Positions 857 through 21,489 of a stretch of DNA of 64,000 bases are shown here, in pieces. The notes below the pieces were generated by a model. It did not search any database. It had not been told where the DNA came from and was given only the letters and a program-made list of their open reading frames with translations. Each line of letters opens with the position of its first letter. Positions within the stretch are counted from its first letter, which is position 1. The stretch comes from Massilia mucilaginosa (GTDB taxonomy: Bacteria > Pseudomonadota > Gammaproteobacteria > Burkholderiales > Burkholderiaceae_D). The position numbers and the translations under genes were made by a program. The stretch is taken from assembly GCF_011682145.1 (NCBI RefSeq), contig NZ_WHJH01000024.1, positions 1 to 64,000 of the forward strand, read 5' to 3'.

Positions 857-1346
857 TGGCTTCGGGCTTCACCGCTTTGATCGCCGCCGGCGCCGAGCCG
901 TCCCATCAAGCGCGGCATCGCCAGGCCGGGTCTGCTGGCGCACGTGCTGGTAGCAAAGTTCGCCGATCGTCTGCTGCTGTGCCGGCAGGCCGTCATTTAC
1001 GCACGCGACGGTGTCAATCTGAATCGCACCCTGCTGACCAGCTCGGTCGGTGCCGCCAGCGCGTTGCTGCGGCCCTTGGTTGATGCGATCCGGCGCCATG
1101 TGCTGGCCGGGGCCAAGCTGCACGCGGACGACACGCCGATTCCGGTAGTGGCGCCGGGTATCGAAAAAACCAAGACGGCTCGTCTGTGGACCTACGTGCG
1201 AGACGACAGGCCGAGTGGCGACACGGCGCCCCCGGACGTGTGGTTTGCCTAAACGCCTGATCGCAAGGGCATTCATCCGCAAACCCACCTAGCGTGCTTC
1301 AGGGGGCGTGCTGCACGCCGATGCTTATGCAAGCTTTAACGCGCTA
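857..1346 (+). pseudogene. IS66-family transposase internal fragment
   Basis: One plus-strand frame encodes IS66 transposase motifs: LLAHVLVAKFADRL, HVLAGAKLHADDTPIPV and RLWTYVRDDRP. It is interrupted by a TAA at 1250-1252, and the continuation is shifted to another frame (VLHADAYASFNAL, about 1308-1346). Both ends of the protein are missing, so this is a dead remnant. Its last bases underlie the 3' end of the neighbouring minus-strand nuclease gene, so that gene's stop codon (1325-1327) lies within IS66-derived DNA. Confidence 0.75.
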
Positions 1347-3112
1347 AGGGCAGTCGCACCGCGCGAATCACCATCGCCGTCTCCCTTCTGTTGGGTAACG
1401 AAGACAAGATCATCTATCGTCCATCGTGTACGGGTTTCCACCTCATGCTCATGAGGTTGCTCTGGTTTGATCATCTCTTCAATTTTATCGAACACCACTC
1501 CCAATGAAGCGCTATCACCTGCATCTTTTTTCGCCAGCTCGACTGCATTGTAGAACTGAGCCCAATTCGCGTATGTCGTGCCGTCACCCAATGCCACGTC
1601 CTTCAGTGGATAGGCGTAGTGCCTAGAGATTACGACACGCAGTATCGAAAAATTCCCGAGCGACTTCGGCAGACCTAAGGTTGCTCGCATCGTCGCGTCG
1701 TCCACAGACTTTGCCCAATGATCCAAAGCGCCAAGCCAACTTACGACCTGCTCTTTTAATCTCGTCGTGCGTTCTCTCTTTGCATGGAGATCTGCCCCAT
1801 ATAGTTCTTGGTACTTGAGCTGGCAAAGGAAAACGATGCCCGCTTTTCCATCGATCACTACAGCGTCCAAATCGGTCAACAGTTTGCCATCAACTTTGAT
1901 TTTAATATTTTCACGACATATCAAGTTCGGGATCGCGCCATCAAGCACACGCGCAAGCCCGATTTGCATGGATTTTTCGCGAGTCTGCTGGTTCCTGTCA
2001 TAGTCACCAGGATAGCGATGGCGTAGCGAATCCAGGAGGAACTTCACTGGGCTTAGCTGAGCTCCTGCAAGGCAACGTATGAATCCTTGCTCCGAGCTCT
2101 GAATGAGAAGCGGCACAGCGCTGCCGGGATTTTCCAGTAAAGCCAAGTTATCCCGACTAACGGACAGTACCGCGAAAATCTTCTGAGCATCGCCCAATCC
2201 AACTCTCTTGTAGCCTTGGATTGGTTGCCCGAAGTGGTTCAATGCCTCTACCAAGTTTTGCAAAAACTCAGGAGTATCCGATGTAATGGTCAGAACGTTT
2301 TCCAATTTACTGGTCGGATTTTTGCGTACCAGTGCCTCAGCAAACTGCTCATGGCGGATGAAAATAGCGACCAAGAAAGTCAACGCTAATAAATAGGTTT
2401 GATAAGGAATTCCACCGAACTCGATTTCGCCGTTGAAGGAATCGAACCCATCATGCACCTGGAGCTCCGCATATGCAACACTGAAAAAATACTCATCAAG
2501 GATTGGCGTTGCGCCGTATCCAATAAAATGCTCCTTCCATGGGTACACGAGCTCGTGCAATGCGTCTTCCACCTCGCCCTGGATCTTGCCTGCAACTTTT
2601 TTCTTGAAAATCTCGGAGAAGAATTGCCGCGACTGGTTGCTGTAGTGGGCTACAACAGCGCGTTCGTAGTGCTCATCATCGAGTACTTTTTCTGGCAACA
2701 TAATACGAAATTCGTTATCACCGATCTGTTCTATTTGGCCGATCCCGGCAAGGACCGACTGAGCTACACGACGACCGTGCTCAATCATTCCTAGTGCCCC
2801 GAGAATTTGCAAAGTGGGCAGGGAAACCGATGGATGACGCACGAAGGTTATTACCGGAAAATCGAACGAAGGTCGCATTTTAAGTGCCAGTTGCACAAGG
2901 CGCGTGATTCCGATTTGCAAAATGTAAGAATGCTCTTCTTGTTCCCGCGACATTTCGTCAATACGTAGAAAGTTGTACCTATACCAGTCCATCTCCGAAA
3001 TCGCTGCTTTCAGCAGCTGGCCAATATTATCGTGCTTGAAGAGTTCAGCGATCTTCGCTTCTTGAGATGTTAGCGCAGCAAAGAATTTGGTTAAAACAGG
3101 ATTTCGCTTCAT
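1325..3112 (-). CDS. Predicted PD-(D/E)xK-like nuclease, DISARM-associated (595 aa)
   Basis: The gene is the last of the minus-strand defence array. Residues 1-380 form a mostly helical region I do not recognise. Around residues 400-435 a conserved-looking block reads TDLDAVVIDGKAGIVFL followed by CQLKYQ. That matches a restriction-endonuclease fold core with a metal-binding Asp and a Q-x-K in place of E-x-K, preceded by a beta-rich segment. A role in DNA cleavage is inferred from this motif alone. A 230-base spacer separates it from drmC, so it may have its own promoter. Its stop codon falls in an IS66 remnant, so the native C-terminus may have been replaced over the last several residues. 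No match to a known DISARM subunit is recognised. Confidence 0.6.
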   Translation of the reverse strand: MKRNPVLTKFFAALTSQEAKIAELFKHDNIGQLLKAAISEMDWYRYNFLRIDEMSREQEEHSYILQIGITRLVQLALKMRPSFDFPVITFVRHPSVSLPTLQILGALGMIEHGRRVAQSVLAGIGQIEQIGDNEFRIMLPEKVLDDEHYERAVVAHYSNQSRQFFSEIFKKKVAGKIQGEVEDALHELVYPWKEHFIGYGATPILDEYFFSVAYAELQVHDGFDSFNGEIEFGGIPYQTYLLALTFLVAIFIRHEQFAEALVRKNPTSKLENVLTITSDTPEFLQNLVEALNHFGQPIQGYKRVGLGDAQKIFAVLSVSRDNLALLENPGSAVPLLIQSSEQGFIRCLAGAQLSPVKFLLDSLRHRYPGDYDRNQQTREKSMQIGLARVLDGAIPNLICRENIKIKVDGKLLTDLDAVVIDGKAGIVFLCQLKYQELYGADLHAKRERTTRLKEQVVSWLGALDHWAKSVDDATMRATLGLPKSLGNFSILRVVISRHYAYPLKDVALGDGTTYANWAQFYNAVELAKKDAGDSASLGVVFDKIEEMIKPEQPHEHEVETRTRWTIDDLVFVTQQKGDGDGDSRGATALSALKLA

Positions 3113-3342
3113 ATAGTGATCGCCCGGTTGCTAGTTGCAGGAAATTGTATTTGACTGCATTCGGCAGCCTGCCAAATTTCTGTGCCCTTCCCAAATGTTC
3201 CTCGCCAAATTCGTTGGGCACTAATTTCCAGCAGAAGCCATTCAGATTAGTTATTGTTGATCGTTGATCTGACGCTTACGGCTAATCAAGTGAAAGGATC
3301 GGATAGGAACCGAAAATCGCTATGGGCGAATTCCAACCTTGC

Positions 3343-4104
3343 TCATACAGCGACGATAACTCGCAGGTCAACAAGTGCACGGAGATGCGCGTCAAGCAGC
3401 GTAGGTATATGCCCGCCAGAAATTAGCACACCTGCTTCCATGTTTTTTTCCATTGCGTGACCGGTTAAATTTGCGCTTGTGATGAAACAGATTGCGCCGT
3501 CCGCGACTGCTAACTTTGCATGTACGCGTCCCCCGGAGAAGTCGCCAACTTTATCAATCCAAGCGTAAAGCCGAGCCGCAGGTACCAGAGCTCTCATCTT
3601 GCCTATTACATCGATATTGATGCTGCCACCATGATCCTGCGAAGACTCAAGAAGCATTGAGACGACGACACCTCGATTAGTCGCTGCATTCAATGCCTGA
3701 ACAATTGCAGAAAAGTCGTAAGCCACAAAGCTTGTTATTAGGAGTCTCGAATCCGCTGTATTGATAACCTGAAGTAGCGCTTGTTCTGTTCGGCGCGCAG
3801 AGATAAGAGGAGTCGTAGGTCCTGTCCAGACAAGCTCCGTAGATTGTTCGTTCGCCACCGTTGTGTACAAATGGCTGGCTGCTCCAAGCATGGCGGCCAA
3901 TTCAGCCGAAGTCACTGCGGTGCCTTTCCACGCCTCGACCAGCTTCTCGACAACGCTAAAGGCATGGGGAGTGCCAACAATGCTATTAAACGTATGGGTG
4001 CCATTAATCAGATCGGTTTGATGGACTCGCGCTGCGATTGCTCGTACCTTTTCTGGAGAAAGCAGGCGTACCACTGACGTGATTGCGTGTAGCAACTCCT
4101 CCAT
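3343..4104 (-). CDS. drmC: DrmC, phospholipase D-like protein of DISARM
   Basis: The protein has 253 residues with a single HKD-type PLD motif near residues 190-200 (VHAKLAVAD) followed by SANLTG, the usual arrangement in PLD-superfamily nucleases. An N-terminal helical region of about 110 residues precedes the PLD fold. It lies one base downstream of the drmB stop codon, so the two are probably translated from one message. In published DISARM systems DrmC is a PLD-domain protein that is dispensable in some tests. Position, size and motif all agree with that assignment. Confidence 0.85.
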   Translation of the reverse strand: MEELLHAITSVVRLLSPEKVRAIAARVHQTDLINGTHTFNSIVGTPHAFSVVEKLVEAWKGTAVTSAELAAMLGAASHLYTTVANEQSTELVWTGPTTPLISARRTEQALLQVINTADSRLLITSFVAYDFSAIVQALNAATNRGVVVSMLLESSQDHGGSINIDVIGKMRALVPAARLYAWIDKVGDFSGGRVHAKLAVADGAICFITSANLTGHAMEKNMEAGVLISGGHIPTLLDAHLRALVDLRVIVAV

Positions 4105-4105
4105 C

Positions 4106-5965
4106 TCAAAAGCCCCTGAAGAATGCAGCGTTCACGCATTCAAATGTTGGCACTAGCAGCGATCGATCAAGGTAACGGTTACCGTGCTCGCACGAAGTTT
4201 CAGCGACGAAGGAGCAAGCGTGGCATGCAGCCACATGCAATGAGCGGTCTTTTTGTGGGTCGTGCTCTGAACAAAGAGGGTCAGATGAGCAAATCTTCGA
4301 ACGACTCAACGCCTGTGCCAGTAACCTGCCGAGATTTTCTGGCTTGCCGAGGTCGACTAGCCCTCCAAGAGTTCCATCTGAATCAGCAGCAGCGGTATAG
4401 ATGAGAATACCAGCCTGTTGCTGTTTGTTGGTGGTGTCCGCGTAAATTCGTTCTCGAATGCTGGCTGCGTTGTAGCCACATTCAAGTGCTAGCTCGCGGA
4501 TAAGGAGATGTGAAAGCGTATGCAACATCGCATAGCGAATGCCAGGATAGCCGGTATTTGGATCAAGACGACGGGAGTTACGCCATCCCCGATGTCCGCC
4601 ACGGAGCATTAAATCAATTTTTTTGACGTCATCCAATAATTCCCAATTCATGAGAGCAGTCTCGTCGAATTGAATGAAAATGCCTTCGCCGTGGACCTGG
4701 TTTGCCGGGATCCAATCAGGTTTGTTGCGCGATAGGGCGGCCATTTGTGGCCGTGCACCAGTATCACCCGATTCTTCTGGAGCTTCCACGCGAGTAAATC
4801 CCAACAACGCGTTCACTTCCCGCAGGCGTTCAAGGAGCAGCACTCGACTTATACGATCGCTGAATCCTGGTGGCGTTCCGATTTTTCTGCTCATAAAATG
4901 CGGATAGTCGGTGGGCGGGTTTGGTTCTGTCAGAACATCCCACTCTGGCCCCTTAATATCGGCTTCACCCACCACCGCTTGTCCTGCACCTGAGAGCCGC
5001 GCCTCAATGGCGTTCCAAACCGCCGAGGGCTGGAACTTGTCGATTCCAGGTAGCGCGCCCGTTTTCTTTAAAGTCTTTACCGTCAACGATACTTCGGCTT
5101 CCGACTCTAGCTCCTCGAAAAACTCCCAGCCGTCTTGAATCAATTGGCTGAGCGGATTTTTTGCTTGTGGGATGGCAAGTGCGGACAGCGTGATCGGAAA
5201 CCAGCTATTTGTAGCCCCCAAAAGGACTGCCCGAGCCTCTTCGCCGCATTCGTTATCGAAATGATCAAGATGTGGATGGCGTCCACGGCAAGCAGGCAGA
5301 TTCTCTTTTCCTGCTTTGCCGAATGCATGCGCCATGCTTCTTGAGGCACCGCACGCATCACATTTCACCCACAAATTTTCCGTTTGAAGGGACGCGCCAC
5401 TCTCGAAGAAACGTAGCGTTCCTTTGCACGAGCTACTACCGCCGTGGACGAAGTAGTGCCATGGGAAATCGTCAAGATGGCCGTCGCGGCACGCCAGCAG
5501 AAAACGTGCGGGCACGGCGTCCGCATCTTTGGCTGGCTGGTCGCCTTTGGAGCCACGGCAACCCTTATGAACAAAGCGAGTTCTTTCCGGCCTGAAGCGG
5601 TTCTCCTTTATGTCGAACAGCGCGGCATCAAAGGGCGACAGCAGTCCGCACTTCACGCACCGCATCCAGCGCGGAAACGGTCGCACTGGTACGCCAATGT
5701 TTGCCTCGGCAGACCAGACGTCGGCCAGTTCACTCTTCTGGAATGGAGGCATCCGCAAACTCTCGACCTGCGAGCCTAAAACCTTCCGAACGGCAGCTAG
5801 CAGTCGGGCCTCTTGAATCGGTTGGCAGCGGTCTTTTTCCCATCTGTCGATGCCGAGCGTCACCACAGACAGGCTAGGCAGGTCAATCAATGCGCCGGGT
5901 CCATAGGTCCACAGCAATTGGCTGGGGCGAACCTCTCCCACTGGAGTCTTGTTGTTGATTATCAT
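4106..5965 (-). CDS. drmB: DrmB, DUF1998 protein of DISARM
   Basis: This is a protein of about 619 residues with the cysteine pairs of the DUF1998/MrfB-like family: CVKCGLLSPF, CDACGAS and a C-terminal CHACSFVAETSCEHGNRYLDR. These probably bind zinc. I place the start at ATG 5965 (MIINNKTPVGEVRPSQLLWTYGPG), two bases after the drmA stop; an upstream ATG at 6004 inside drmA is the alternative. Known DrmB works with the DrmA helicase to form the core complex that recognises incoming phage DNA. The adjacent coupled drmA and drmC support the call. Confidence 0.88.
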   Translation of the reverse strand: MIINNKTPVGEVRPSQLLWTYGPGALIDLPSLSVVTLGIDRWEKDRCQPIQEARLLAAVRKVLGSQVESLRMPPFQKSELADVWSAEANIGVPVRPFPRWMRCVKCGLLSPFDAALFDIKENRFRPERTRFVHKGCRGSKGDQPAKDADAVPARFLLACRDGHLDDFPWHYFVHGGSSSCKGTLRFFESGASLQTENLWVKCDACGASRSMAHAFGKAGKENLPACRGRHPHLDHFDNECGEEARAVLLGATNSWFPITLSALAIPQAKNPLSQLIQDGWEFFEELESEAEVSLTVKTLKKTGALPGIDKFQPSAVWNAIEARLSGAGQAVVGEADIKGPEWDVLTEPNPPTDYPHFMSRKIGTPPGFSDRISRVLLLERLREVNALLGFTRVEAPEESGDTGARPQMAALSRNKPDWIPANQVHGEGIFIQFDETALMNWELLDDVKKIDLMLRGGHRGWRNSRRLDPNTGYPGIRYAMLHTLSHLLIRELALECGYNAASIRERIYADTTNKQQQAGILIYTAAADSDGTLGGLVDLGKPENLGRLLAQALSRSKICSSDPLCSEHDPQKDRSLHVAACHACSFVAETSCEHGNRYLDRSLLVPTFECVNAAFFRGF

Positions 5966-5967
5966 GC

Positions 5968-8900
5968 TCAATCCTCGTCCGTCGTTGTAGGGCGCGGCTT
6001 CCAATCGTGTTCGTCAACGATATGACTTGTATTCATAATCAGACGCACACCGGGCTCAACTTCTCGCATTGACATTGGCACAGTCCAGTTATCCCAAGCC
6101 TGCAAGCCAGGAGACTTGATCAACGCAACAGTCATGTCTTTTTGAGGGCCACGTTTTTCATAGGCCAGGATACGGCCACCTTTGCTTACTTCTTTCGCCC
6201 ACTCGTCGGAACGCTCTTTCAGTTCAGCCTCAGCTAACTGTTTGCGGGAATTGTCCTCGGCAACATTGCCGGCGCGAGTCGCCAGTACCTTAATCGCGTC
6301 GATCATTTCAATTTGATTCGACATGTTCAACTGCCCAGCACCTTCGTTTGGACTGAACATGTCGTTATCAAGACGCATGAGGCTCAGCAATGCTCCAGTC
6401 AAACCCCGGTCCATCGCCCTAGGTGAGAATGGCGTTACCGATTGCGCTTCGACATGCTTGTAGAACGTGGCGTGGTAGTGCTCGAAGGTTTCGTAATGGG
6501 ATAAATCTCTGGGCCTAGCCCAAGTCAGCACTGTGCAGACCAAGCCAGGGAACGATCGTCCGACACGACTGGTAGCCTGAATGTACTCAGCAGTGCCTTT
6601 GGGCTGTCCGTTCACTGCCATCAGACCGAGCCGATTCACGTCGACACCTACAGACAACATGTTCGTCGCAAGCACGACATCAATGGCACGCGTGTCGCCT
6701 TCTTGCCAGCGGGTTACATACTTGCCTTTTGCGACATCGAATTCAGACTTAAACTTGACCTCAAGATTGTCCAAGTACTTAGGAATATCTTGGCTAGATA
6801 CCCTTGATGTCAGTTCTCGAATATTGTTGATACTACGCTGAGCGAGCGCCGGCCGCTCGACCATACTCATCTGCACGCGGTAAGAACGAGTTTGCACGTC
6901 ATCCTCTGCCAATCGCTTCATCCCGCCCAATTCACGCAGGGAGTTGAAATAGCCGACCATGGTCATGTACGGGTCAGCAGGTTCCCCAAAGTGGTCGAAC
7001 AATTCCTGTGCCGCAGTTAAGAACGCAGTGTAGACGCGGATCAGCATCGCAGGCCGTGAGCTGCCCGGTGAGCACACACCTATGTAACGTCGGCCCGACT
7101 TTTCCTTTATTGGCCGCTGGACGGAGAAAAAGTTGTCCTCAATGTCTAGGCCGTGCGGTGGAAACACCGAGACCCGGCGCATGAAGACATTGTTGACTTG
7201 CTCCTTTGCCTTTCGTACTGTCGCAGTTGAGGCAATGATTTTTGGCTTGACAGTCTTGTCGCCTAATCTCCAACCGCACAGCTCATCAACGGCAGCTTCG
7301 TACAAACCAACCATAGTGCCCAACGGTCCACTGATCAAGTGAAACTCATCTTGAATGATTAGATCTGGCGGGCGAATCGGACTGATGGTTTTTACTTTTG
7401 TCGAAGTTTGACCTTTACTCGCTTGGTGGTTTCCATTGCAATCAGAACCTTGCCAAAGCAGACCATGGCGCTCGCATTCCTGTCTCGCACGTCCAAACAG
7501 GGTGCGCACCTGGCCTCGCCATGCCATCATGGCGAACTTGTCGACTGTGGCGATCATCATGGTTGGAGGGCGGTGATAGATTTCTTCATCAACAACTAAT
7601 ACCGGAAGTCCCGGATGCGGCTGCTTGCTGGACTTGCCCTTGGAAAAATCGCAGCGGCCTTTCTTATCACCGCAATAAACGAAGGTGCGGCCAGCCCCTC
7701 TATCGACCTCAACATCCCGACCGGGAGCGACTTCAGAGCCGCACCATGGGCAACTGGTAAGTTGGGCGGGCGATGCCGCTCCAGCGTTGTATTTGCCGGG
7801 ATTCCGAGTATCTTCAATGGCGCGGTGGCTGTCCTCGGTCGTGCCGGGTGTCACCTTATTGCCAACCCAGAGTCCAATGGTGAAAGGTTCCGTGCCCAGC
7901 GGTTTCTCGCCCTTGTCGAGCGCTTCACGTCGCAGAACTTCCATTGCGCAGATTAATGCAGTGGCACGTTGGAACTGTTGTAGCGTCAGCAAGCGAAGCG
8001 TGTAACGCATTACTACGGCCAACCCACGTGAACTGTCGTATCCGCCGAGATTTCCCTGCATTCGCCGGATGGCCATGGTGAAAGCGGCCACCCCCAAATA
8101 TGCCTCTGTCTTACCGCCGCCGGTAGGGAACCACAGAAGATCGGCGTATGCTTCGACAGGTTCAACACGATCCGGGTGACTCGGATCTGCCAGCGAAGCG
8201 ATCGAAAGCAGGAGAAACGCTAACTGAAATGGCCGCCAACTGCGGTTTTTCAACACATCGAACTTGCTGATGGTGACATCCTCCCCGCGACGCATGGCCA
8301 ATGCGTATTGGCTACGCACACGTTGTGTCGCCATTGCTTGATTGGCAAACCGGAAGGCAGCCAGCGCTTTCTCATCGTTCTTCAGCGTATTAATACCCTG
8401 CTGCAGGCGTGCTTGGATCTCTTGACACCGATCCATCGCTTGTTGCGACTGCGTGTCGTACCCTGTGACTTCTGCCCCGATACGAGCGCGCTGGGAATTG
8501 ATCCAGGCTGCGTAGTCCTTGGTCAGCATGCTCAATGCATGGACCAGCGGGTCGATTGCTAAAGTTGCCAGTCGCTGCATATCGAGCAGACCACTGCTGA
8601 CCATCTCGCGCATCGCCGGGCGATCGGACGGATCAAGTCCTGGCGTTTCCGTAACTTGCACTTCGTATTGAGGCATCACGGTGGTCCGCACCTCCGTGGC
8701 CAGCGTCACGTCGTCCGCTATCTCTGCATGGATGGCAACACCATGGCCCACGGCGAATTCGACGCGGTTACGATAGATCATCTCCAGAGCTTCACGCTCG
8801 GGGTCAAGGCCGTCTGAATCCAGCACCGGTCGGCGCCGAAAAATGGTGCGCTTGGCGGCATTCTTCTCCGAACGAACGATTAACTCGGGCTGGAAAACCC

Positions 8901-9936: not shown

Positions 9937-9962
9937 GTGCTTGGTACCTTGATACGTATGCG

Positions 9963-12376: not shown

Positions 12377-12455
12377 GGGCTGGCTTTCTGTTGGTGTGGC
12401 GACTTCGTTTTAGGCAAGCAAACCGTCTCGCACGGCAATGACGCTTAGGGCCGAA

Positions 12456-15400
12456 TCATGGTGTTCCCTTCGGCTGTTCGTCCCTCTGGCTGGGCTGGAA
12501 ATGATAGCGTGCACCGCGCCTTTCGCCTTGACGCTTAACCCTGTCGGTCAAGATTAGCTCCGAGATCGCGGTGTTCCATTGGCCGTCAGTGACGCCAGTG
12601 GCGGCGATAATGTCCGATTTCGAGTGCCAGCCGAGATGGGTTCTCAGGTATTCAACGATGACGGGGGTCGGTCCCGCGTTATACTCTGCGTGGGATTCGG
12701 CGGCCTTATAGTAGGTCTCTTCATTTGCTTGAGGAGTATCGAAGCCAAACGATGATTGCCATGCAGGCCTATCTTCGGTGCGCTGGACGCGAGATTTGCG
12801 GACAGCCGCACCATTGATCTTGTTCATATGCAAACCTTGGGCGACTTCTTCCTCGTGCCGAATGCGGTTCAACTCCGACAGTCGCCGCAGCACTTCGACG
12901 CGTGCTCTCTCCGAAATGGTGAAGCGGACGCGGTCGTTCTCCGGCAGATATGGCACTTCGTGGAAGCCGTGTTGGAGATCAAGGTCATCCCAGCCGTAGG
13001 CGCGCGCGACAGCATCGTCCAATGCACGCTGCACCGCGCGCAACTTCTCAATGCGAGGATCGTCCTCAGTCTCGATATGGAAGCGGTTGTAGAGTTTGGT
13101 TAGACCGATACGATCGACTCGCATTAAATCTATGCGACCCTGGTGGAGTCGATCACCCAAGTCATCAAGCGCCCCCACGGGTGCGTCATAGAATCCAGGA
13201 GGGAAAGCAAACGGATCGAGTGCATCGGTCGGGGTATACCGAAGGTCGCTCTTCAGACGCGAGGCGTGCTGCCAGGCGAAGCCGGCATGGACACTTGATT
13301 GCAACACCGCAAAATCTCTTGCCCGGCTAAGCGAGAATACGACGGTGGCATCCGAGAATATAATATTACGGTCGACAAACGAGAACGCCAGCGTCTTGCT
13401 GACGCGTGTGATCACTAACACTCTTGGGGCTTCACTCGAGTTGGCCGACCAGCCTTCCGGATGGCGCTCGAAATAGCTACCATGACCAATGGCATGATAT
13501 AGGGCAGGGCGCTTGTCAGCATAGTGCCACCAACGTTCAGGGAGCGGTTTTCGGAGCACAAAATCACCACGTTCGTTGCGGCGTTGCCGTTCCGGCTTCA
13601 CTCGATCTTCAATCCACTGCCACGGCATCTCGTATTTTCGTGCGCGCTCCTCTGGCCAATCCCAAAAGTTGATTGCCCAGCGGCTCGGTCGCTGCTCGCA
13701 GTCGGAATTGAGGTCATCGCCGTTTATATAAGGGAAGATCACCTCGGCATTCTTCGGGTCCGCGTCGAGCATCCGCTGCGCCTCGTCTGACGTTAGCACG
13801 AAGCCCATTCCAAGTACGTAGGAGCCAATGAACGCTTTACCTTCGTTTGCTTTCAATCGCATCGGACTCCACTCCTCACGATCGGACAGAAAGGCCGAAA
13901 TGTAGGAAACCGGTCGCCCAAGCAGCGAGCGTTCGCCCTGCCAAACACCTTTATGGACATGAACTCGACTGGTGATGACCGCCGCTTTTCCTGGCCAAGG
14001 TTCGTTCGGATAGGCAGCATGGATAACAGCGCCCGAACCGACCATTGCTTCAAGCCCTACTTGTCGCGTATCACCTTCTGCGATCGTGTTGACCGCAAGC
14101 AGCCCAAACCCGCCGCCTTCTCGAAGTATGCTCCAAGCCCGCAGAAAGAAGTATGCGACCAGATCCGCCGATCCGCGGCGCCCATCAGCGAGATTGTTCA
14201 CTAGCCAGTTGCGGTATGCATCGCCCGTTGCACCTGTGATGCGCTTGCCGCCGAGGAATGGCGGGTTTCCCACTATCGCGTCAAAGCCACCGCGCTCGTT
14301 CGCAAATACCTCTGGAAATTCCAACGGCCAGTGGAAAGGTCGATGTGCAGGCTTGTCAACAGGCACGTCGGTCGAGAGAGCGACAAGCGACCTCTGGCAC
14401 ATAAGGCTAAGTTCGTTGTGGTCGCCGTTGATTGCCTGCCCTACCTGTACAGTCAGCGATTCTAGGATGCTATTCAACGGCGCGCCGTTGCCGCGTGATG
14501 TGAACACTGCCCCAATAAGCGCATCGGCTATATATTCCGGCACTTTGACCCTGCTGCGCGCGTCGGCGTCCAAATGGGCCATCGTTTCGACGTCGTGGAT
14601 GTCGCGGATGGGTATCTCACGCAGGCGTGAGCGCAATTCAATGGCCTCGCGCACGGCGATCTCAATGTTCTGTCCAAATAGGCGTTGTTGGCCTTTGCCT
14701 GTCGGATTCATCGACAATTCCGTGAGTTGTTCCAGCCTGTGGATTCCGAGCAGGCTATCGCCGTGGCGCAGGTTGTGATCGAGAAAGCCGAAGGGACGTC
14801 CCTTAGCCATTGTCACCAACCAAATGGAAAGCTTGGCCAGTTCAACGGCTAGTGGATTCACATCGACGCCATAGAGGCAGCGCTCGGCGATTAGGCGGCG
14901 GGCGATTACGATGCGTATTTCGGTGTCGCGTGGCAGTGGTTCTTTGACATCGGAAGCACAACGTACGTCGCCATCGACGCTCACCACTTCACCTGAAGTT
15001 TCAACCACAGCCCAAGCTTCAACTAGTCGGTCGGCGAACCAACGGCAGGCTTGTACCAGGAAGGCACCCGAGCCCATGGCGGGGTCGCAGATCTTGAGAG
15101 CCAAAAGCTCTGCCGGAGATTTAAGCTTCCAATTCTCGCGGGCCGCTCCTACTGCAGGGCCTACGTATGCGACGGGTGTCAACGTCTCGCTTACGATGGC
15201 CTCTGTCAGCGATTTAGGAGTGTAGTGGGTGCCGGTTTCGCGCCGGTCGGAACCGGTGGTGACGATGAAGGCACCTGCTGGATAAACAAGCGGATAGCCC
15301 CATGGATCGGTGCGCAGCAAATGGGCATAGGGTTTGACGCGATCGCGGAGCTTTGTGTCGCCTTGGCAAGCCGTCAGCAAGCGGTCGGCCAAGTTGTCAT

Positions 15401-16880
15401 CGACGGCTTTCGCTAGATCATTGCGCACCCGGCTGTCAGAACTGCCAGAGCGCTCTTGCAGCAACTCGGCCAATCGCACGGCACCATCCAAGCGTGCCGA
15501 ATCCAGTTCGGCCAACTTAACCCATGGTGCATTGGCGTTTTTGGCGGAATCTAGTTCCAGCGTGACCTCATCGATGCGCTTGACAGTGCGTTCGAGCAGT
15601 CCTTCGTACACGTAGCCGATCTGTTCGACATCCAGCGCACGGTAAGAAAGTGTGCGGCCCTGAAATTGCTGGATGGCTTCCAGCAACAACAGCACAGTGC
15701 GGTTGTCGATGGGTAGTGGATTGGCTGCGCCGGTGCGCCAGTTGGAGCCCTTCACCCGACCTTCGAGGAACGGAAAGCGGTCGGGATCGAACAGCGAGCC
15801 GCCCAATGCAGGCAGGCGAAGGTTTTCGTGCTCAATGCCACCGAACACCGCGCGGAAGGTCGCCAGCAGGCGCGACCAGGCATCCCAGCGGCGCTCCAGA
15901 ATTTCCTCGCACTCTTTGCGCAACTGCATGCGCAGGGTGGAGAGCGCGTAGTTGGCCTCGTAGCATTCGTCGCCCATCAGGAGTAGACCACGCTCCTCAG
16001 CCGAGAGCAGGAACACCAGGCGCATCATCACTGTCAGCGCGGCCTCATACAGTTCGGGTTCTTTGACGTCGTGCAGGAGCTCTCGATTGCGGTCTTGGTC
16101 GGCTTTGTCGAGCGTCTGAACTAATACTTCGACGGCGCGGCGGACTTGCTCGCCAAGGGCGTCGGTGACTTCGTCCTGAAACTTCAGGGAGCGATCGAAC
16201 AGCACAGGCAATTGTTCGGATTCATCGACAAAGAAACGGCGAATGCCGAGCAGGTGAACGAAAGCCTGCAGGGTGATGGGCTCTTGGCTCCAGACCCGGG
16301 CATACCAACTGGCAAAGGTGCTAACGGCACCCACTGGGGCATCTACAAGCATCCAACGCTCACCGTTGGTCACCAAACCAAGTCGACAACCGAGCGAGCG
16401 GCACAACTGCACCATTCGATCGGCAGGGGTGGCAGCCCAGCCATCTTGCTTCACGGTTGCATTGAGGTCGACCTCCTGCGCATAGCTCTGGATCAGCAGC
16501 AGTGGCGTGTTGGCACGTTGCTCGTCAATCACCGCATAATCGGGCGACAGTGTCACGCCAGGTTCTGCCAAACTGGCTTGGAGGTTGGCGGCGCACCAGT
16601 CGGCGCGCTTGAGAAGGGCGCCTTTTCCGTCTTCATCAAGCTCAAGGCCACGCGAAAGCACTTCCTCGATCCATGCAACGTGCAACTCGACGAACTCCGG
16701 GTCTTCCAGCTCCAGCGCTTCGCGCCATTCCTCGTAGGCTTGACGCAGACGTTTGCGCTTCGTGGCATCAAGTTCTTCTAGCCCTTGCGGAAAGGCTTCC
16801 TTCAGAACGGGAACAGCGAGGAAGGGGCCGGAGATCTCGATCAGCGACAGCCAATCATCATGCATGCTGGGAGCACTCAT
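12456..16880 (-). CDS. drmMI: DrmMI, adenine-specific DNA methylase of DISARM
   Basis: This 1474-residue protein has a SAM-binding motif CDPAMGSGAFLVQ near residue 600 and a catalytic GNPPFLGGKR near residue 870. These are typical of N6-adenine methylases in the Eco57I/type IIG-like family. The N-terminal 500 or so residues resemble the specificity/helical part of such enzymes. The last 90 or so include a winged-helix-like segment (HSKSDIIAATGVTDGQWNTAIS). Its ATG overlaps the drmD stop by four bases. DrmMI marks class 1 DISARM and protects host DNA. Confidence 0.88.
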   Translation of the reverse strand: MSAPSMHDDWLSLIEISGPFLAVPVLKEAFPQGLEELDATKRKRLRQAYEEWREALELEDPEFVELHVAWIEEVLSRGLELDEDGKGALLKRADWCAANLQASLAEPGVTLSPDYAVIDEQRANTPLLLIQSYAQEVDLNATVKQDGWAATPADRMVQLCRSLGCRLGLVTNGERWMLVDAPVGAVSTFASWYARVWSQEPITLQAFVHLLGIRRFFVDESEQLPVLFDRSLKFQDEVTDALGEQVRRAVEVLVQTLDKADQDRNRELLHDVKEPELYEAALTVMMRLVFLLSAEERGLLLMGDECYEANYALSTLRMQLRKECEEILERRWDAWSRLLATFRAVFGGIEHENLRLPALGGSLFDPDRFPFLEGRVKGSNWRTGAANPLPIDNRTVLLLLEAIQQFQGRTLSYRALDVEQIGYVYEGLLERTVKRIDEVTLELDSAKNANAPWVKLAELDSARLDGAVRLAELLQERSGSSDSRVRNDLAKAVDDNLADRLLTACQGDTKLRDRVKPYAHLLRTDPWGYPLVYPAGAFIVTTGSDRRETGTHYTPKSLTEAIVSETLTPVAYVGPAVGAARENWKLKSPAELLALKICDPAMGSGAFLVQACRWFADRLVEAWAVVETSGEVVSVDGDVRCASDVKEPLPRDTEIRIVIARRLIAERCLYGVDVNPLAVELAKLSIWLVTMAKGRPFGFLDHNLRHGDSLLGIHRLEQLTELSMNPTGKGQQRLFGQNIEIAVREAIELRSRLREIPIRDIHDVETMAHLDADARSRVKVPEYIADALIGAVFTSRGNGAPLNSILESLTVQVGQAINGDHNELSLMCQRSLVALSTDVPVDKPAHRPFHWPLEFPEVFANERGGFDAIVGNPPFLGGKRITGATGDAYRNWLVNNLADGRRGSADLVAYFFLRAWSILREGGGFGLLAVNTIAEGDTRQVGLEAMVGSGAVIHAAYPNEPWPGKAAVITSRVHVHKGVWQGERSLLGRPVSYISAFLSDREEWSPMRLKANEGKAFIGSYVLGMGFVLTSDEAQRMLDADPKNAEVIFPYINGDDLNSDCEQRPSRWAINFWDWPEERARKYEMPWQWIEDRVKPERQRRNERGDFVLRKPLPERWWHYADKRPALYHAIGHGSYFERHPEGWSANSSEAPRVLVITRVSKTLAFSFVDRNIIFSDATVVFSLSRARDFAVLQSSVHAGFAWQHASRLKSDLRYTPTDALDPFAFPPGFYDAPVGALDDLGDRLHQGRIDLMRVDRIGLTKLYNRFHIETEDDPRIEKLRAVQRALDDAVARAYGWDDLDLQHGFHEVPYLPENDRVRFTISERARVEVLRRLSELNRIRHEEEVAQGLHMNKINGAAVRKSRVQRTEDRPAWQSSFGFDTPQANEETYYKAAESHAEYNAGPTPVIVEYLRTHLGWHSKSDIIAATGVTDGQWNTAISELILTDRVKRQGERRGARYHFQPSQRDEQPKGTP

Positions 16881-19800
16881 GCACCACCTCCCTGCACGGC
16901 AGATGCGGGCACTAGAAAGATGACGGCGACCGGGAAGGTGCGGTCGTTGAGTTTGGCGTAGCGGCTTTCGATGGCTTTAGCCTCCTGCTGGCGCTCGGCC
17001 GGAATGCGGGCAAGTCGGGCCTCCAGTGCGGCGGTGTCGCGTCTGAGCTGTGTTCGTTCGTCTTCGGAGAACAAGGAAAGCTGGGCAGGTTGCTGATCTT
17101 TTTTTAGTTCGGCGTGGATGGCTTTTTCAAGCTCATCAAGGACGGCGCCAATGTCGGCCACTTCCTGCTGCTCGCGGGACTGCAAGGTGTGGGTCAGGAA
17201 TTTGAGCCGATCTTTTGAACGCGCATCCACTGACTGTAGGATGACGCCTTGGGTGCGATCGAAACGTACACGGATAGCATCGAAGAGTGAGTCTGGAGCC
17301 GTAAGTGGCTTAGCGATATCCAGCCATTGCTGGACTTTTGTGACGCCTTCCTCGCGACGGAAAGACTTATCCCCCAGATAGCCCCCTGCCACTGTAAGCT
17401 CTTCATGTAGGCGATGATGGTTGCCGCCTGTGATGACCAGTCGTGAGACGACGACGACGGCAGGGTCGGCGATCAGGGCGTCCGGTACCGAACGCACGGT
17501 GACGCGATGCAACTTCTTCACGTCGTCTTGGGCCCACACCTCAGCGCGCAGCAAGCGCAGACACATCTGTACGAGTCGGTGGTTCAGGTGAACTAACACT
17601 ACGTCGTCACGCCCGGTTGCAACCGCATGGTCGAAAGTGATCGGACGAATTTGCAGCGTGTGAGGATGGCGCAGCCCCTCAAGGCATCGTGCCCACGAGC
17701 CCGACAGCGCGGGCATCTTGAATACGGCGCCAGTCCGGGCATCAGCCAGGGCAAAGGGTTCCAGCGGTGGGCGACCTGCCAACAGAAGACCTGTCTTGAC
17801 CGCCATGAGGATGTGCTCTGGCGTGAGATGGAAATCCTGTTGTGTGGTCAGCAGCCGCTCGTGGAGCTTAGCGACGCGGTCTTTCAGTTCTCGCTCGGCT
17901 CGCACAAAGCGTCTGGCTTTGGCGATTTTGGCTTCAGCGAGTCTGGTGTCGAGCTCCTTGAGCGAGCCTTCTATCAGCCCCGAAATTTGTGGTGCGATGA
18001 CCGGGTTAACGCTGCCCATGTCAGACCGCATAGATTCGAGCTTGCGAAGTGCCCGGATAATGTCGTCGCCGTGGCCACCGATCGTCGCTTTGCCCTGTTC
18101 GCCGCCATCAACGGGGTGCCAAATCAATACTTCCTTGTGACGCTGGCCGTGCCGGTCGATACGGCCATTGCGCTGCTCCATAACATTGGGATTGTACGGA
18201 ATCTCAAGATGGATGAGGCAGTTGCAGTGGTTCTGCAAGTCGATACCTTCAGATGCGGCATCGGTGGCCAGCAAAATCCGGACTGGTGAATCCTTCGGCG
18301 AGGTCTGGAAAGCGGCTTTAATTTTCTCTCGCTCATCTTGCGGCATACCGCCATGAAGGATGGCCAATCTGTCGCCGCCAAAATCGTGGCTAGCGAGAAT
18401 TTCGTGCATCCATTGGTGGGTGGTGCGGTATTCGGTGAACAAGATCACTCGGCGATCATTCCACTGACGGTCGGTTTTTAGATTAGTCGTGAGCCAGTCG
18501 AGGACGGCTTTGGCTTTGGCGTCGACCTGGTTCTTAGCCGATTGCGCCCACGACCGCAGCTCATTTAACATTTGTTGCTGGTCTGCTGTGAGCGGTTGCG
18601 CGCGACGCGAGGCTTCTTCAACGGCCTCTGCTTGCGCATTTTCGACTTCCTGGTCGTTGGCGTAGTCTTCCTCGACCCGCAGGATGGCTTTGCGCAAAAT
18701 GCGATCGGCCATCGCATCCTTGTCTTTGCGTTGGCTTCCATTGACGAGGCTGGCGATGTGCTTCTCAAGGGTGGATGCGAAAGCGGCAGGAGAAGAAAAG
18801 AGTCGTTTTTTGAGCAACTGATTAACGAACGACGTGCCCAACAAATTGCCGACCTTCGCTGCATCCTGCTCCCGGCTCGCGCAGTAGTCATTCAGCTTTT
18901 GGTGGATGGCGCGGTCCTGTGCGGAGTATGAGGCCAGCAGCGCTCGCAGCTTGCGCTGTGCATAGAGCGGCTTGCCTTCTGAATCGACGAGGTCGCTTTT
19001 CAGTCGGCGGATCATTACCTGACTCAACTGCCTTTCATCCGGCAAGATATTTCGAGCGAAACGTTGGTCGTCGAGCAACTCCAGCAACGAAGTGAAGGAT
19101 TCGGTGTAGCCGTTATGCGGAGTGGCCGTAAGAAACAGACGATGCTGGAAGTGCGGACTGATGTAGCGAATAAAGCGTGTGCGCTGACTCTCAAGCGCGT
19201 AGTTCGCGCCGGCTGCGGGGGCGACGTTGTGTGCTTCATCGACGACCAACATGTCGAATTTGCGCGGATAGCTGGTGTGCGTAGGCAATACGTCACGCAT
19301 AGCGCGCAAGCCTTCGCCGCTTTTGACCCAGTCCATAGACGCAATAAGGCGTGGATGCGAAGTCCAGGGATTGGCATGGATGCCGCGATCTCGGCGCAAC
19401 TGTTTGATATATCCGGTGTCAACTACCTTGAACTCAAGGCCGAACTTTTCCAGCATCTCCACCCGCCACTTTTCTTGCAGCGATGCGGGGCAGATGATCA
19501 GGACGGAACGGGCGCGGTGCCGCAGCAACATCTCCTGGATGACGAGACCGGCTTCAATGGTTTTGCCCAATCCAACATCGTCGGCGATGAGTAAATTGAC
19601 GCGGGCCATATCAATGGCGCGGACAAGAGGGTCCAGTTGGAAATCCTCAATGCTAACCCCGCTGCGGAAGGGGGCCTGTAGGAACCCACGATCTGCGTTC
19701 GTTGCGGCACCCCACCTGACCGCATCAAGGAACGCCTCAAGGGTGGCGGACTCATCTTGGCCCGTAATCGACGGCAGACCGGACCGTTCGATTACTTGGG

Positions 19801-20017
19801 CACCTGGCTCAATCTCCCAAATTACCTCAAGTTGTTCGCCTAGTCCGTCTTCGTCAATCGACGAAAGGGTCACTAAGTTCTGCTCAGTAGAGTTCGCCGC
19901 CCAATTAGAGGAAGCGACATCCGCAACTACCCACTGCCGGCGACGCACCTCGACAAGTTGTCCCAATTCCGGAGGCGCGCGATAACCTTGACTTATTTGA
20001 TCCACTGTAATTTCCAC
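16877..20017 (-). CDS. drmD: DrmD, SNF2-family helicase of DISARM
   Basis: The protein has 1046 residues with a SNF2-type ATPase core. It shows ADDVGLGKTIEAGLV (motif I, near residue 142), VVDEAHNVAP (motif II, near 258), LFLTATPHNGY (motif III), and ATDAASEGIDLQ with QRNGRIDRHGQ (motifs V-VI, near 590-612). A coiled-coil-prone region follows near residues 430-500 and near the C-terminus. DrmD is the class 1 DISARM helicase and always sits with DrmMI, as here. The spacer of about 150 bases upstream separates it from the cytosine methyltransferase gene and may carry a promoter. Confidence 0.88.
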   Translation of the reverse strand: MEITVDQISQGYRAPPELGQLVEVRRRQWVVADVASSNWAANSTEQNLVTLSSIDEDGLGEQLEVIWEIEPGAQVIERSGLPSITGQDESATLEAFLDAVRWGAATNADRGFLQAPFRSGVSIEDFQLDPLVRAIDMARVNLLIADDVGLGKTIEAGLVIQEMLLRHRARSVLIICPASLQEKWRVEMLEKFGLEFKVVDTGYIKQLRRDRGIHANPWTSHPRLIASMDWVKSGEGLRAMRDVLPTHTSYPRKFDMLVVDEAHNVAPAAGANYALESQRTRFIRYISPHFQHRLFLTATPHNGYTESFTSLLELLDDQRFARNILPDERQLSQVMIRRLKSDLVDSEGKPLYAQRKLRALLASYSAQDRAIHQKLNDYCASREQDAAKVGNLLGTSFVNQLLKKRLFSSPAAFASTLEKHIASLVNGSQRKDKDAMADRILRKAILRVEEDYANDQEVENAQAEAVEEASRRAQPLTADQQQMLNELRSWAQSAKNQVDAKAKAVLDWLTTNLKTDRQWNDRRVILFTEYRTTHQWMHEILASHDFGGDRLAILHGGMPQDEREKIKAAFQTSPKDSPVRILLATDAASEGIDLQNHCNCLIHLEIPYNPNVMEQRNGRIDRHGQRHKEVLIWHPVDGGEQGKATIGGHGDDIIRALRKLESMRSDMGSVNPVIAPQISGLIEGSLKELDTRLAEAKIAKARRFVRAERELKDRVAKLHERLLTTQQDFHLTPEHILMAVKTGLLLAGRPPLEPFALADARTGAVFKMPALSGSWARCLEGLRHPHTLQIRPITFDHAVATGRDDVVLVHLNHRLVQMCLRLLRAEVWAQDDVKKLHRVTVRSVPDALIADPAVVVVSRLVITGGNHHRLHEELTVAGGYLGDKSFRREEGVTKVQQWLDIAKPLTAPDSLFDAIRVRFDRTQGVILQSVDARSKDRLKFLTHTLQSREQQEVADIGAVLDELEKAIHAELKKDQQPAQLSLFSEDERTQLRRDTAALEARLARIPAERQQEAKAIESRYAKLNDRTFPVAVIFLVPASAVQGGGA

Positions 20018-20170
20018 GCAAGTATTTCTTGTTCTGTCTGATCAAATAGGCTATGTCTAGACTGGTAGATTCACAACGTGCTTCTTGTGACCACCAGAAA
20101 TCCTTGTTCGCGTCGCGTGATTGGCATCTGCTAAACCGGTGCGCGGCACTCGGATCAAATTTATGCCCGA

Positions 20171-21211
20171 CTAATTCAAAAGCGGTGCGATGTGGGCACT
20201 AATACTTCTTGCGATCGCCCTCCCCAAATCCACGGGTACTGCGTTACCAATTAGGCGTCCAAGTGCTGTGAAGCTGACTTCGCCACCGGCCGGCACAAAA
20301 ACATAGTCACGGGGGAAGCTCTGCAAGATTGCGGCCTCCCGCAATGAGATCGCCCTATCTTGTTTTGGATGTCCAAAGCGCCCATTTCCGAATCCGTAGC
20401 ATTGCGTAGTCATTGTGGGAGCTGGCTTGTTCCATTCCATGCGGCCGTACACGCCTGGATATGTTCGTCCGCTCTCAGCCCGGTGGCACTCTGCAACAAG
20501 ATGTCCGGGCCAATCCCGCCAAGTTCCTCCTGGTCGCGAGGCTCGAATACGTTGCAGATTTTTTTCCGACAACGATGCTGTTGCATGGAGCTTATCCCTT
20601 GTTGCAGACTCCCCTGCATGCAGACTTCGCAAGCGACCGATGGCTTGACGAACTGTTTTCGGCTTCACATGAGTTGCCGGTACCATCGTGATGCTACCGT
20701 GCTTTGAGGCTAACAGGACCATTCGGCGTCGAATCTGAGGAACTCCGTATTTTGAACTATCGACGATATCGAACCAGACGTGGTAGCCGAGCCTTTTTAG
20801 GGTGTCAATGAAATCGTGAAAGACCGCGTGCCGCGCCACAGATGGCACATTTTCCATCGTAATAACATCGGGAGACGCCCCTTCAGCAAGGCGTGCAAAT
20901 TCGTAAAGGAGTCCCCACTTTCCTTCTTTTCCGTCTATTTCATATCGGTGCGCATACGTTGAGAATGGTTGGCAAGGCGCGCAACCTGCGAGAATCTTCA
21001 CATCTGCATTGCCAAAGAGTGTCAGCAGTTCTTCGGCAGATACTTTGCTGATATCTCGCTCCAAGAATTTCGCCTCGTTATTCGACTCGTAGGGGTACCT
21101 GCAAGCAGGGTCCAAATCAATGCCCGCTGTTACAGGCAAGCCTTCCAAAACAAATCCATGGGTAAGCCCCCCCGCGCCGCAGAACAAGTCGACACAAGCA
21201 ATTTTCTTCAC
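20171..21211 (-). CDS. DNA (cytosine-5-)-methyltransferase
   Basis: This 346-residue C5 methyltransferase has the motifs in canonical order: DLFCGAGGLTHGF (I), GCAPCQPFSTYAH with the catalytic Cys near residue 81 (IV), ITMENVPSV (VI), QIRRRMVLL (VIII) and IGNAVPVDLG (X). The short target-recognition region lies near residues 200-270. Class 2 DISARM uses a C5 methylase (DrmMII), whereas this locus is otherwise class 1. This protein could therefore be a DrmMII-like subunit or an orphan methylase in the same defence array. It precedes drmD on the same strand. Confidence 0.85.
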   Translation of the reverse strand: MKKIACVDLFCGAGGLTHGFVLEGLPVTAGIDLDPACRYPYESNNEAKFLERDISKVSAEELLTLFGNADVKILAGCAPCQPFSTYAHRYEIDGKEGKWGLLYEFARLAEGASPDVITMENVPSVARHAVFHDFIDTLKRLGYHVWFDIVDSSKYGVPQIRRRMVLLASKHGSITMVPATHVKPKTVRQAIGRLRSLHAGESATRDKLHATASLSEKNLQRIRASRPGGTWRDWPGHLVAECHRAESGRTYPGVYGRMEWNKPAPTMTTQCYGFGNGRFGHPKQDRAISLREAAILQSFPRDYVFVPAGGEVSFTALGRLIGNAVPVDLGRAIARSISAHIAPLLN

Positions 21212-21276
21212 ATTACATCTCCATGATTGATTTGATTCCTACCGCATAGCGAAGCCATACCATCAGTTAACAAAAA

Positions 21277-21489
21277 TTAACCTTTGCTCCGGTTTTCGAT
21301 CTCAGCAGCGCCACCAGAGCGTACCCAGTCGTCGACTTCGTCGGATTTGAATTTCCAAAGCCTGCCGATGCGATGAGCTGGCATGTTCCGCTTGCTTATC
21401 CAAGCGTAGACGGTGTCCTTGCTCACTCCGAGGTATTCAGCAATCTCCTCGACCGACAACCAGCGTTCTGACATAACAGGAGGTTCCAT
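21277..21489 (-). CDS. AlpA/excisionase-type helix-turn-helix protein (70 aa)
   Basis: This small protein has one MerR-like/HTH_17 domain: WLSVEEIAEYLGVSKDTVYAWI, then RIGRLWKFKSDEVDDWV. Such proteins occur at the head of many restriction, BREX and DISARM loci, and as AlpA or Xis regulators of integrated elements. It stands first in the minus-strand defence array, 65 bases before the cytosine methyltransferase. It may bind the array promoter, or may serve as a recombination directionality factor for the island. Residues 1-5 before the internal Met 6 are uncertain. Confidence 0.75.
   Translation of the reverse strand: MEPPVMSERWLSVEEIAEYLGVSKDTVYAWISKRNMPAHRIGRLWKFKSDEVDDWVRSGGAAEIENRSKG

Follow-up and report, generated by a model that had tools for sequence, protein, structure and literature searches.

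A MORC-type ATPase and Methyltransf_35 cassette in the drmMI-drmA junction of class 1 DISARM

DISARM is a bacterial gene cluster known to act against viruses. The class 1 DISARM locus of Massilia mucilaginosa (RefSeq assembly GCF_011682145.1) holds two additional genes, which encode an ATPase of the MORC type and a protein of the Methyltransf_35 family (MT35). The locus lies in the first 64,000 nucleotides of contig NZ_WHJH01000024.1, and this whole stretch is referred to here as the window. The two-gene cassette occupies the junction between drmMI and drmA (9963..12376, minus strand). We consider it rather probable that the pair belongs to an independent module of MORC-type ATPase, MT35 and C5-cytosine DNA methyltransferase (C5 methylase), lodged in a swappable slot of DISARM, where it probably uses the C5 methylase of its host system. 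The architecture of the locus, its recurrence, a loosely coupled history, the behaviour of the slot and the conservation of active-site residues speak for this reading. What was suspected to be a fixed subunit of DISARM thereby becomes a module open to testing. It would be a minimal MORC system, present in many prophages and without an entry in PADLOC 2.0.0.

Architecture of the locus

Class 1 DISARM, reportedly described by Ofir in 2018, and the window have drmD, drmMI, drmA, drmB and drmC in common; the window adds the ATPase and MT35 genes between drmMI and drmA. Judged by strong PADLOC matches for all five proteins, together with NCBIfam matches, the class 1 gene set is complete at 3343-20017 on the minus strand, as the first-pass annotation of the window had proposed. 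The set begins with drmD (16877..20017, minus strand, like all genes of the locus), which encodes a SNF2-type helicase of 1046 amino acids (aa) with SNF2-rel_dom and Helicase_C domains. The PADLOC DrmD model gives 1544 bits for this protein and is outscored by a model labelled DrmA (1736 bits). It overlaps by 4 bp with drmMI (12456..16880), whose product of 1474 aa is a type IIG/MmeI-like methyltransferase (Pfam Eco57I, MmeI_Mtase, MmeI_TRD) that scores slightly higher with the PADLOC model REase_MTase_IIG (2085 bits) than with DrmMI (1981 bits). Beyond the cassette lie drmA (5968..9936), for a YprA-family helicase of 1322 aa (NF038325 DISARM_DrmAS, 1495.8 bits, cut-off 950), drmB (4106..6004; 632 aa; NF038324 DrmB_fam, 766 bits, cut-off 240) and drmC (3343..4104), for a PLD nuclease of 253 aa (NF038319 DISARM_DrmC_I, 244 bits, cut-off 133). 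Just upstream of drmD sits a gene missing from the earlier gene list, for a DrmMII-like C5 methylase of 346 aa (20171..21211; PF00145, 1.2e-56; PADLOC DrmMII, 7.5e-90).

Within the cassette, the ATPase gene (10958..12376) encodes 472 aa with GHKL and S5 domains and a C-terminal part (HATPase_c_3, PF13589, 1.7e-9), and the MT35 gene (9963..10958) encodes 331 aa with a class I methyltransferase fold (PF20553, 1.9e-84). The presence of two genes at this position and the methyltransferase fold of the second had been recognized at first pass. So had their coupling by a one-base overlap, GAATAATGGG (TAATG), in which the stop codon TAA and the start codon ATG have one A in common. The overlap is not general; a 3-bp gap takes its place in 16 of the 25 relatives measured. 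A Vsr gene was searched for in the window and none was found (best E 0.078), and promoter and terminator scans gave counts like those of shuffled sequence.

Recurrence within DISARM

A genome scan based on exact peptides of the window's MT35 protein gave 34 loci, the neighbours of which were assessed by tblastn with the window's proteins (loci carry L numbers and sampled genomes G numbers). In 26 of the 34 the pair adjoins DISARM genes and the gene order is that of the window; among these is L017, whose contig begins at the pair with drmMI out of view. One locus is decayed (L030), and seven have no adjoining DISARM genes (L020, L023, L025, L027, L029, L031, L032), the contigs of L020, L029 and L032 stopping about 0.5 kb downstream or less. 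The 26 loci span four phyla (Pseudomonadota, Planctomycetota, Myxococcota and Chlorobiota) and include one uncultured bacterium. Chance adjacency of pair and DISARM is ruled out by this conserved order. A Microvirga plasmid shares this order, its annotation reading C5 methylase, Vsr, drmD, MmeI-type enzyme, ATP-binding protein, O-methyltransferase, drmA, DUF1998 protein and drmC. In L004 (3866-8509), a DISARM locus with the pair, drmMI comes immediately after the C5 methylase and drmD was not found; the contig is from a metagenome-assembled genome, and an assembly error is possible.

Three overlapping genome samples were drawn from the class (369 genomes), the phylum (398) and the order (220). 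Methyltransf_35 occurs in 3, 5 and 2 of these genomes, respectively, and 3, 6 and 5 have a DrmA above the NF038325 cut-off. DrmA matches under the cut-off, including the contig-end pieces in G536 and G875, were not taken as class 1, which set aside 99 of the 102 matching genomes from the class (E up to 0.001), 9 of the 15 from the phylum (E up to 1e-60) and 1 of the 6 from the order (E up to 1e-150). With the window's genome excluded, six different genomes have Methyltransf_35 and nine have class 1 DrmA. The two sets have one genome in common, G915, in which the pair sits in the window's gene order. In these samples, one of the nine other class 1 DISARM loci has the pair, and five of the six other Methyltransf_35 loci are away from DISARM. 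Plasmid records with a DrmA relative numbered 53, of which 10 were examined.

The drmMI-drmA junction

One internal junction of class 1 DISARM admits defence cassettes. In 15 class 1 loci without the pair drmMI is followed by drmA, and 9 of them have an open reading frame (ORF) of at least 90 aa in this junction. The corresponding counts are 3/15 for drmD-drmMI, 0/13 for drmA-drmB and 0/7 for drmB-drmC. G629 and the Pseudanabaena plasmid L130 have another gene order and stand outside the comparison; two loci, G249 and G573, have a piece of drmMI listed as a separate junction ORF, and neither depends on that piece. In G698 and the plasmids L127 and L135, all class 1, drmMI and drmA directly overlap by 4 bp and leave no gap. 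The occupants include a Helicase-DUF2290 set (G772, G885), a reverse transcriptase of the RT_UG5-nitrilase type in G249, where an IS66 transposase also splits drmMI, and XRE/M78 genes in G718 and G573, those of G573 matching RmrA models. The pair itself can have company in the same junction, namely an AspBHI-like methyl-directed nuclease (L003, L009, L033), PDC-S39 (L001), PIN_8 (L022) or PDC-M65B (L026).

A junction of this kind might merely tolerate insertion, and the pair would then be functionally unlinked to DISARM or its methylase. The unrelated genes in the junction, some of them reversed (L128, L133), agree with such a passenger, but the pair is co-directional and mostly closely spaced, and the drmMI and ATPase genes overlap by 4 bp in some loci. 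Evidence from the C5 methylase, given below, also bears on this question.

The drmD-drmMI junction also accepts cargo. A Schlafen group 3 helicase (PADLOC PDC-S41) lies there in G885 (L122, 14991-17009), and in L002, L011 and L015, where these genes are about 490-630 bp apart, the gap holds an ORF of 211-217 aa, possibly a small accessory gene. Directly downstream of the pairless class 1 DISARM of the Deinococcus plasmid L127 (22599-26308) are genes for Vsr, a C5 methylase and an ATP-binding protein (1,995 bases), a set that is perhaps another GHKL-type module.

The module outside DISARM

Standalone pairs adjoin a C5 methylase in L020 (of another type), L023, L025, L027, L029, L031, L071, L095 and L096. 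The same holds for the Pseudomonas filamentous phage PfAC20, the one relative found in a search of phage records. The standalone pair of L097 lies by a SNF2 helicase, and no C5 methylase was seen on the 4.3-kb contig of L032. In viral contigs, 45 relatives were detected by a profile-guided scan. In the examined stretches, 44 of the 45 have a C5 methylase and none has drmA, drmB or drmC. The trio is found among P2-type portal and replication (gpA) genes in 21 of the 45; the PHROG identities of these neighbours were established for one locus, L146. Since the P2 gpQ-gpA interval is described as an anti-phage defence hotspot (PMC9122126), this location is indirect evidence that ATPase, MT35 and C5 methylase form a defence system. 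Eight of these 21 loci have only the trio between portal and gpA genes and no other ORF of at least 80 aa, and the additional ORFs in the other 13 are only short (81-183 aa), which leaves room for silencing without cutting. Other loci leave room for cutting, as they carry Vsr (L020, L025, L027, L095, L096, L179, L180) or HNH (L071) genes. We know of little on the role of MORC proteins in bacteria, and a phage-borne set of three genes makes their function directly testable.

In L071 (13868-14800), beside the standalone pair and the C5 methylase, there is a protein with an HNH_2 domain and a weak EVE-domain match under Pfam's cut-off, a candidate modified-base-reading nuclease partner. In L173 (1-9328) a divergent ATPase and MT35 pair precedes genes for an HKD/SNF2 helicase and a type IIG methylase. 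The examined stretch showed no C5 methylase, and the restriction-like setting is unlike that of other pair loci. L173 was first scored as having DrmD and DrmMI and was considered as a second DISARM association. This was rejected: the helicase matches best the model 'C3a139' (HKD+Snf2), the methylase matches a type IIG model, and DrmA and DrmB were not found in the whole 29.6-kb record. Among 5,426 E. coli genomes, 117 match the L146 module query, but over at most 5% of the query, the best hits falling at its flanks.

Histories of the pair and the DISARM core

The history of the pair is only loosely coupled to that of the DISARM core. Protein distances were compared by Mantel correlation over 23-27 DISARM loci with the pair. 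DrmA, DrmB, DrmC and DrmD correlate among themselves at 0.90-0.98 (DrmA-DrmB 0.97, DrmA-DrmD 0.98), DrmMI with the other core proteins at 0.73-0.81, and the ATPase with MT35 at 0.905. For the pair against DrmA, B, C and D the values are 0.37-0.59 (DrmA-ATPase 0.53, DrmA-MT35 0.43), and those with DrmMI are 0.33-0.39. Individual loci show the same looseness: the identical share between L015 and L024 is 89% for DrmA and 62% for MT35, and the opposite is seen between L022 and L024 (61% and 90%). In the tree of the pair (41 rows; the broken pair of L072 was left out of the trees), DISARM residence changes at least five times, and all five changes are forced by starred branches.

These results bear on the proposal, made in the first-pass annotation, of an expanded DISARM subtype in which the built-in pair contributes a DNA-clamp step. 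As an integral subunit, the ATPase and MT35 would work together with DrmAB. The constant place and tight spacing seen in 26 of the 34 relatives and the large DISARM-resident subclade over four phyla are what one would expect of a subunit, and DrmAB is reported to sense DNA (PMC9142583), an activity that a clamp could assist. Nevertheless, the histories of pair and core are loosely coupled, eight of the nine other class 1 loci sampled lack the pair, its family resides mostly outside DISARM, and other cassettes use the same slot. We therefore regard an integral subunit as unlikely. The pair does recur inside class 1 at one position, so that much of the proposal stands; the extra built-in step is not supported. 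The 1 in 9 frequency in the samples speaks against an expanded subtype, as do pair-core correlations of 0.33-0.59 (DrmMI included) against 0.90-0.98 among DrmA, B, C and D. The same annotation named residence mostly away from DISARM as the observation that would count against it. Such residence is found for the family, with 5 of 6 sampled and 45 of 45 viral-contig loci outside DISARM, but not for the window's own subclade.

The C5 methylase

A nearby C5 methylase is present in every testable DISARM locus with the pair, counting the window (27 of 27; the decayed L030 is excluded, as are L017 and L019, where the contig stops short of the place of the C5 methylase). In L001, L002, L011, L015 and L022 the gene lies past the retrieved stretch, and its place beside drmD is deduced from contig coordinates. 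In two Pseudomonas loci, L007 (17848-19291) and L033 (19265-20323), the C5 methylase is downstream of drmC and reversed, with Vsr as well in L007. Pairless DISARM has a neighbouring C5 methylase in 5 of 8 genome loci and, by annotation, in 2 of 9 plasmid loci. Distances of the C5 methylase track those of DrmA, B, C and D (Mantel 0.85-0.90) more than those of the pair (0.39-0.51) over 15-17 loci, with short pieces and L007 and L033 left out. The C5 methylase as a property of the pair alone was accordingly rejected; it follows the DISARM core and adjoins pairless DISARM in G698, G249, G772 and G885.

Seven standalone modules of the close clade have a C5 methylase. In a tree of 37 rows, which includes 5 of the 44 viral-contig methylases, six of these (L023, L025, L027, L029, L031, L136) nest among the methylases of DISARM, apart from the methylases of outer standalone modules. 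The exception is L020, a standalone locus deep in the DISARM-resident clade, whose C5 methylase matches MTase_II at 399 bits and DrmMII at 62 bits (PADLOC) and was excluded from the tree by the score filter. Sharing of DISARM's C5 methylase by the pair is the simplest reading of these observations, not proof. A functionally unlinked passenger would fit L020 and the loosely coupled history of pair and core, but chance insertion would not predict a DISARM-type methylase in six of seven close-clade standalone modules, and we find this explanation quite unlikely.

The ATPase and its partner

The ATPase belongs to the MORC family by its fold. The MORC signature GhXhhpXXRhl of the S5 domain is present in 41/41 family ATPases longer than 300 aa, compared with 33/8,200 shuffles, and in none of 40 other window ORFs examined. 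In structural re-alignment MORC chains occupy ranks 1-7, with MORC3 the best, which bears out the 'MORC-like' label of the first pass. The ATP-site residues D34, N38, D72, G108 and G110 are kept in 75 of 76 distinct sequences and K333 in all 76, and simple patterns for three GHKL motifs each fit 39 of the 41 family ATPases. The general base, usually Glu in GHKL ATPases, is Asp here. Searched against the PDB by sequence, the single ATPase sequence matched only weakly, to Endoplasmin (E 0.008 and up), and its profile gave nothing at E 0.01. No C-terminal PD-(D/E)xK or DUF4263 domain was found by Pfam at E 0.05. The ATPase and MT35 of the window matched no PADLOC 2.0.0 model at E 0.01, and the pairs of L146 and L095 each matched 0 families.

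MT35 has the Rossmann fold and the pocket residues of a class I S-adenosylmethionine (SAM) methyltransferase. G44 and D110 are found in 76 of 76 distinct sequences and E67 in 74, the other two having Asp. Against the PDB, the single sequence gave nothing at E 0.1 and the profile nothing credible (best E 0.035). Sequence and fold together support the view that the pair is an ATP-binding MORC-type protein with a SAM-type partner, strongly constrained and in most settings next to a C5 methylase. The fold of the ATPase would permit a DNA-clamp mechanism, and topological trapping of DNA has been reported for C. elegans MORC-1 (PMC8277788).

A control device is another explanation, in which the GHKL protein senses ATP or the state of DNA and MT35 modifies RNA or protein, tuning restriction in the manner of the HEF_HK/Response_reg_2 pair. 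In loci of that type, too, a C5 methylase adjoins a HATPase_c_3 protein along with a second one, and Vsr is frequent (PMC8011034). However, neither HEF_HK nor Response_reg_2 was found in the window pair (Pfam, E 0.05), the second protein here has a methyltransferase fold, the ATPase re-aligns best with MORC3, and a common Rossmann fold reveals no substrate. Signalling of this kind is decidedly unlikely.

Proposed mechanism

Under the favoured reading, the cassette would be the effector half of a three-gene module of ATPase, MT35 and C5 methylase that also lives alone in bacteria and prophages. We infer for the pair DNA clamping, the sensing of a mark, the sharing of a methylase and an anti-phage action. 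The C5 methylase would mark host sites; inside DISARM the cassette would most likely rely on DISARM's C5 methylase for this self-marking, so that one methylase serves two defences. The ATPase may dimerise on ATP and then close on DNA that lacks the mark. MT35, with its conserved SAM-type pocket, may partner the ATPase in reading or modifying the target. The clamped DNA would be silenced or, at loci that encode a nuclease, handed on to it (Vsr or HNH at some loci, DrmC/DrmAB here).

Eukaryotic MORCs are reported to repress transposons and silent, methylated genes. We offer, as a tentative and still doubtful suggestion, that the trio is an uncatalogued immune system of MORC-clamp silencing, lacking a dedicated nuclease and directed at unmarked phage DNA, a bacterial counterpart of methylation-linked eukaryotic MORC silencing. 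Class 1 DISARM would have an internal slot for cassettes of this sort and supply the pair with its C5 methylase, giving one self-mark for two defences.

Evidence against an independent module

Several observations weigh against the favoured reading. The 34-locus scan favours close, DISARM-resident kin because exact window peptides were used. The inner clade that holds the window's pair is DISARM-resident in 28 of 36 rows, and the pair may be in a lasting partnership with DISARM. The Mantel values between pair and core, weak as they are, lie above zero (p 0.0005 to 0.0035). The C5 methylase found with the pair may stem from the DISARM lineage, because pairless DISARM has one too. The contrast between 27/27 loci with the pair and 5/8 without it (Fisher p 0.009) is confounded by the DrmA clade, since the three loci without a C5 methylase have more distant DrmA. 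L020, with its C5 methylase of another type, is a counterexample to methylase sharing and weakens the case for a fixed partnership of pair and methylase. Other DISARM junctions can take genes too, as seen in the rearranged DISARM of the Pseudanabaena plasmid L130 (19608-20154), where a BrnT toxin and BrnA antitoxin lie between drmB and drmC. At the level of the proteins, Foldseek's own ranking places SMCHD1 and Hsp90 chains ahead of MORC2 (rank 23). DNA amino-methyltransferases carry motif IV as (D/N/S)PP(Y/F), and in MT35 this motif is W-F/L-D-Y/F, not DPPY.

Relation to known systems

The searches made, which covered open-licence PubMed Central (PMC) papers only, found no description of the pair inside DISARM. 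A C5 gene in DISARM is not new in itself, because the Serratia DISARM operon has both C5 and N6-adenine methylases (PMC9142583), a combination also present in the window. Embedding in DISARM has precedent as well, since about 70 homologues of ShdA (Shield) are reported in DISARM-like operons of Pseudomonas (PMC10270631). ShdA is an RmuC-domain protein rather than a MORC, and no general slot is described in the available part of that report. The internal slot extends it and offers a place to look for further systems.

Prokaryotic MORC and paraMORC proteins were placed in restriction-modification neighbourhoods by Iyer in 2008 (PMC2292703). They share with the window's ATPase the GHKL and S5 domains and the MORC signature, and their neighbourhoods have a C5 methylase, Vsr and a SNF2 helicase. 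Unlike those, the pair has a Methyltransf_35 partner and a DISARM lodging, neither of which is named in the available text of that study. The GHKL-Shedu protein VcSduA, a paraMORC3, shows that a GHKL ATPase can be directly anti-phage, its ATPase mutant being inactive (PMC12137116), but it has its own DUF4263 nuclease domain, which Pfam does not find in the window ATPase. The P2-like gpQ-gpA hotspot is the locus that harbours the 21 viral-contig relatives described above, and the words HATPase, ATP-binding, methyltransferase and cytosine have 0 occurrences in the main text of its description (PMC9122126).

Other features of the window

Downstream of drmC lies an ORF of 595 aa (1325..3112, minus strand), a possible accessory gene, for which Pfam, NCBIfam and PADLOC scans gave no match. 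Weak relatives (24-30% in the best segment) are downstream of drmC in L002, L006 and L009, and a stretch LDAVVID...LCQLK resembles, by eye, a core of the PD-(D/E)xK type. The G+C content is about 0.48-0.59 in the DISARM part of the window (1-30000) and 0.59-0.71 at 30000-64000. This shift in composition places an island boundary near 30 kb; the other end is out of view, the contig starting at window position 1. Four tightly spaced genes at 24151-29638 on the minus strand encode proteins of 393, 495, 778 and 167 aa, the first two of which match Phage_integrase. We take this set to resemble the multi-recombinase operons of genomic islands of the GInt type, and the recombinase-like operon may be the carrier that brought the island.

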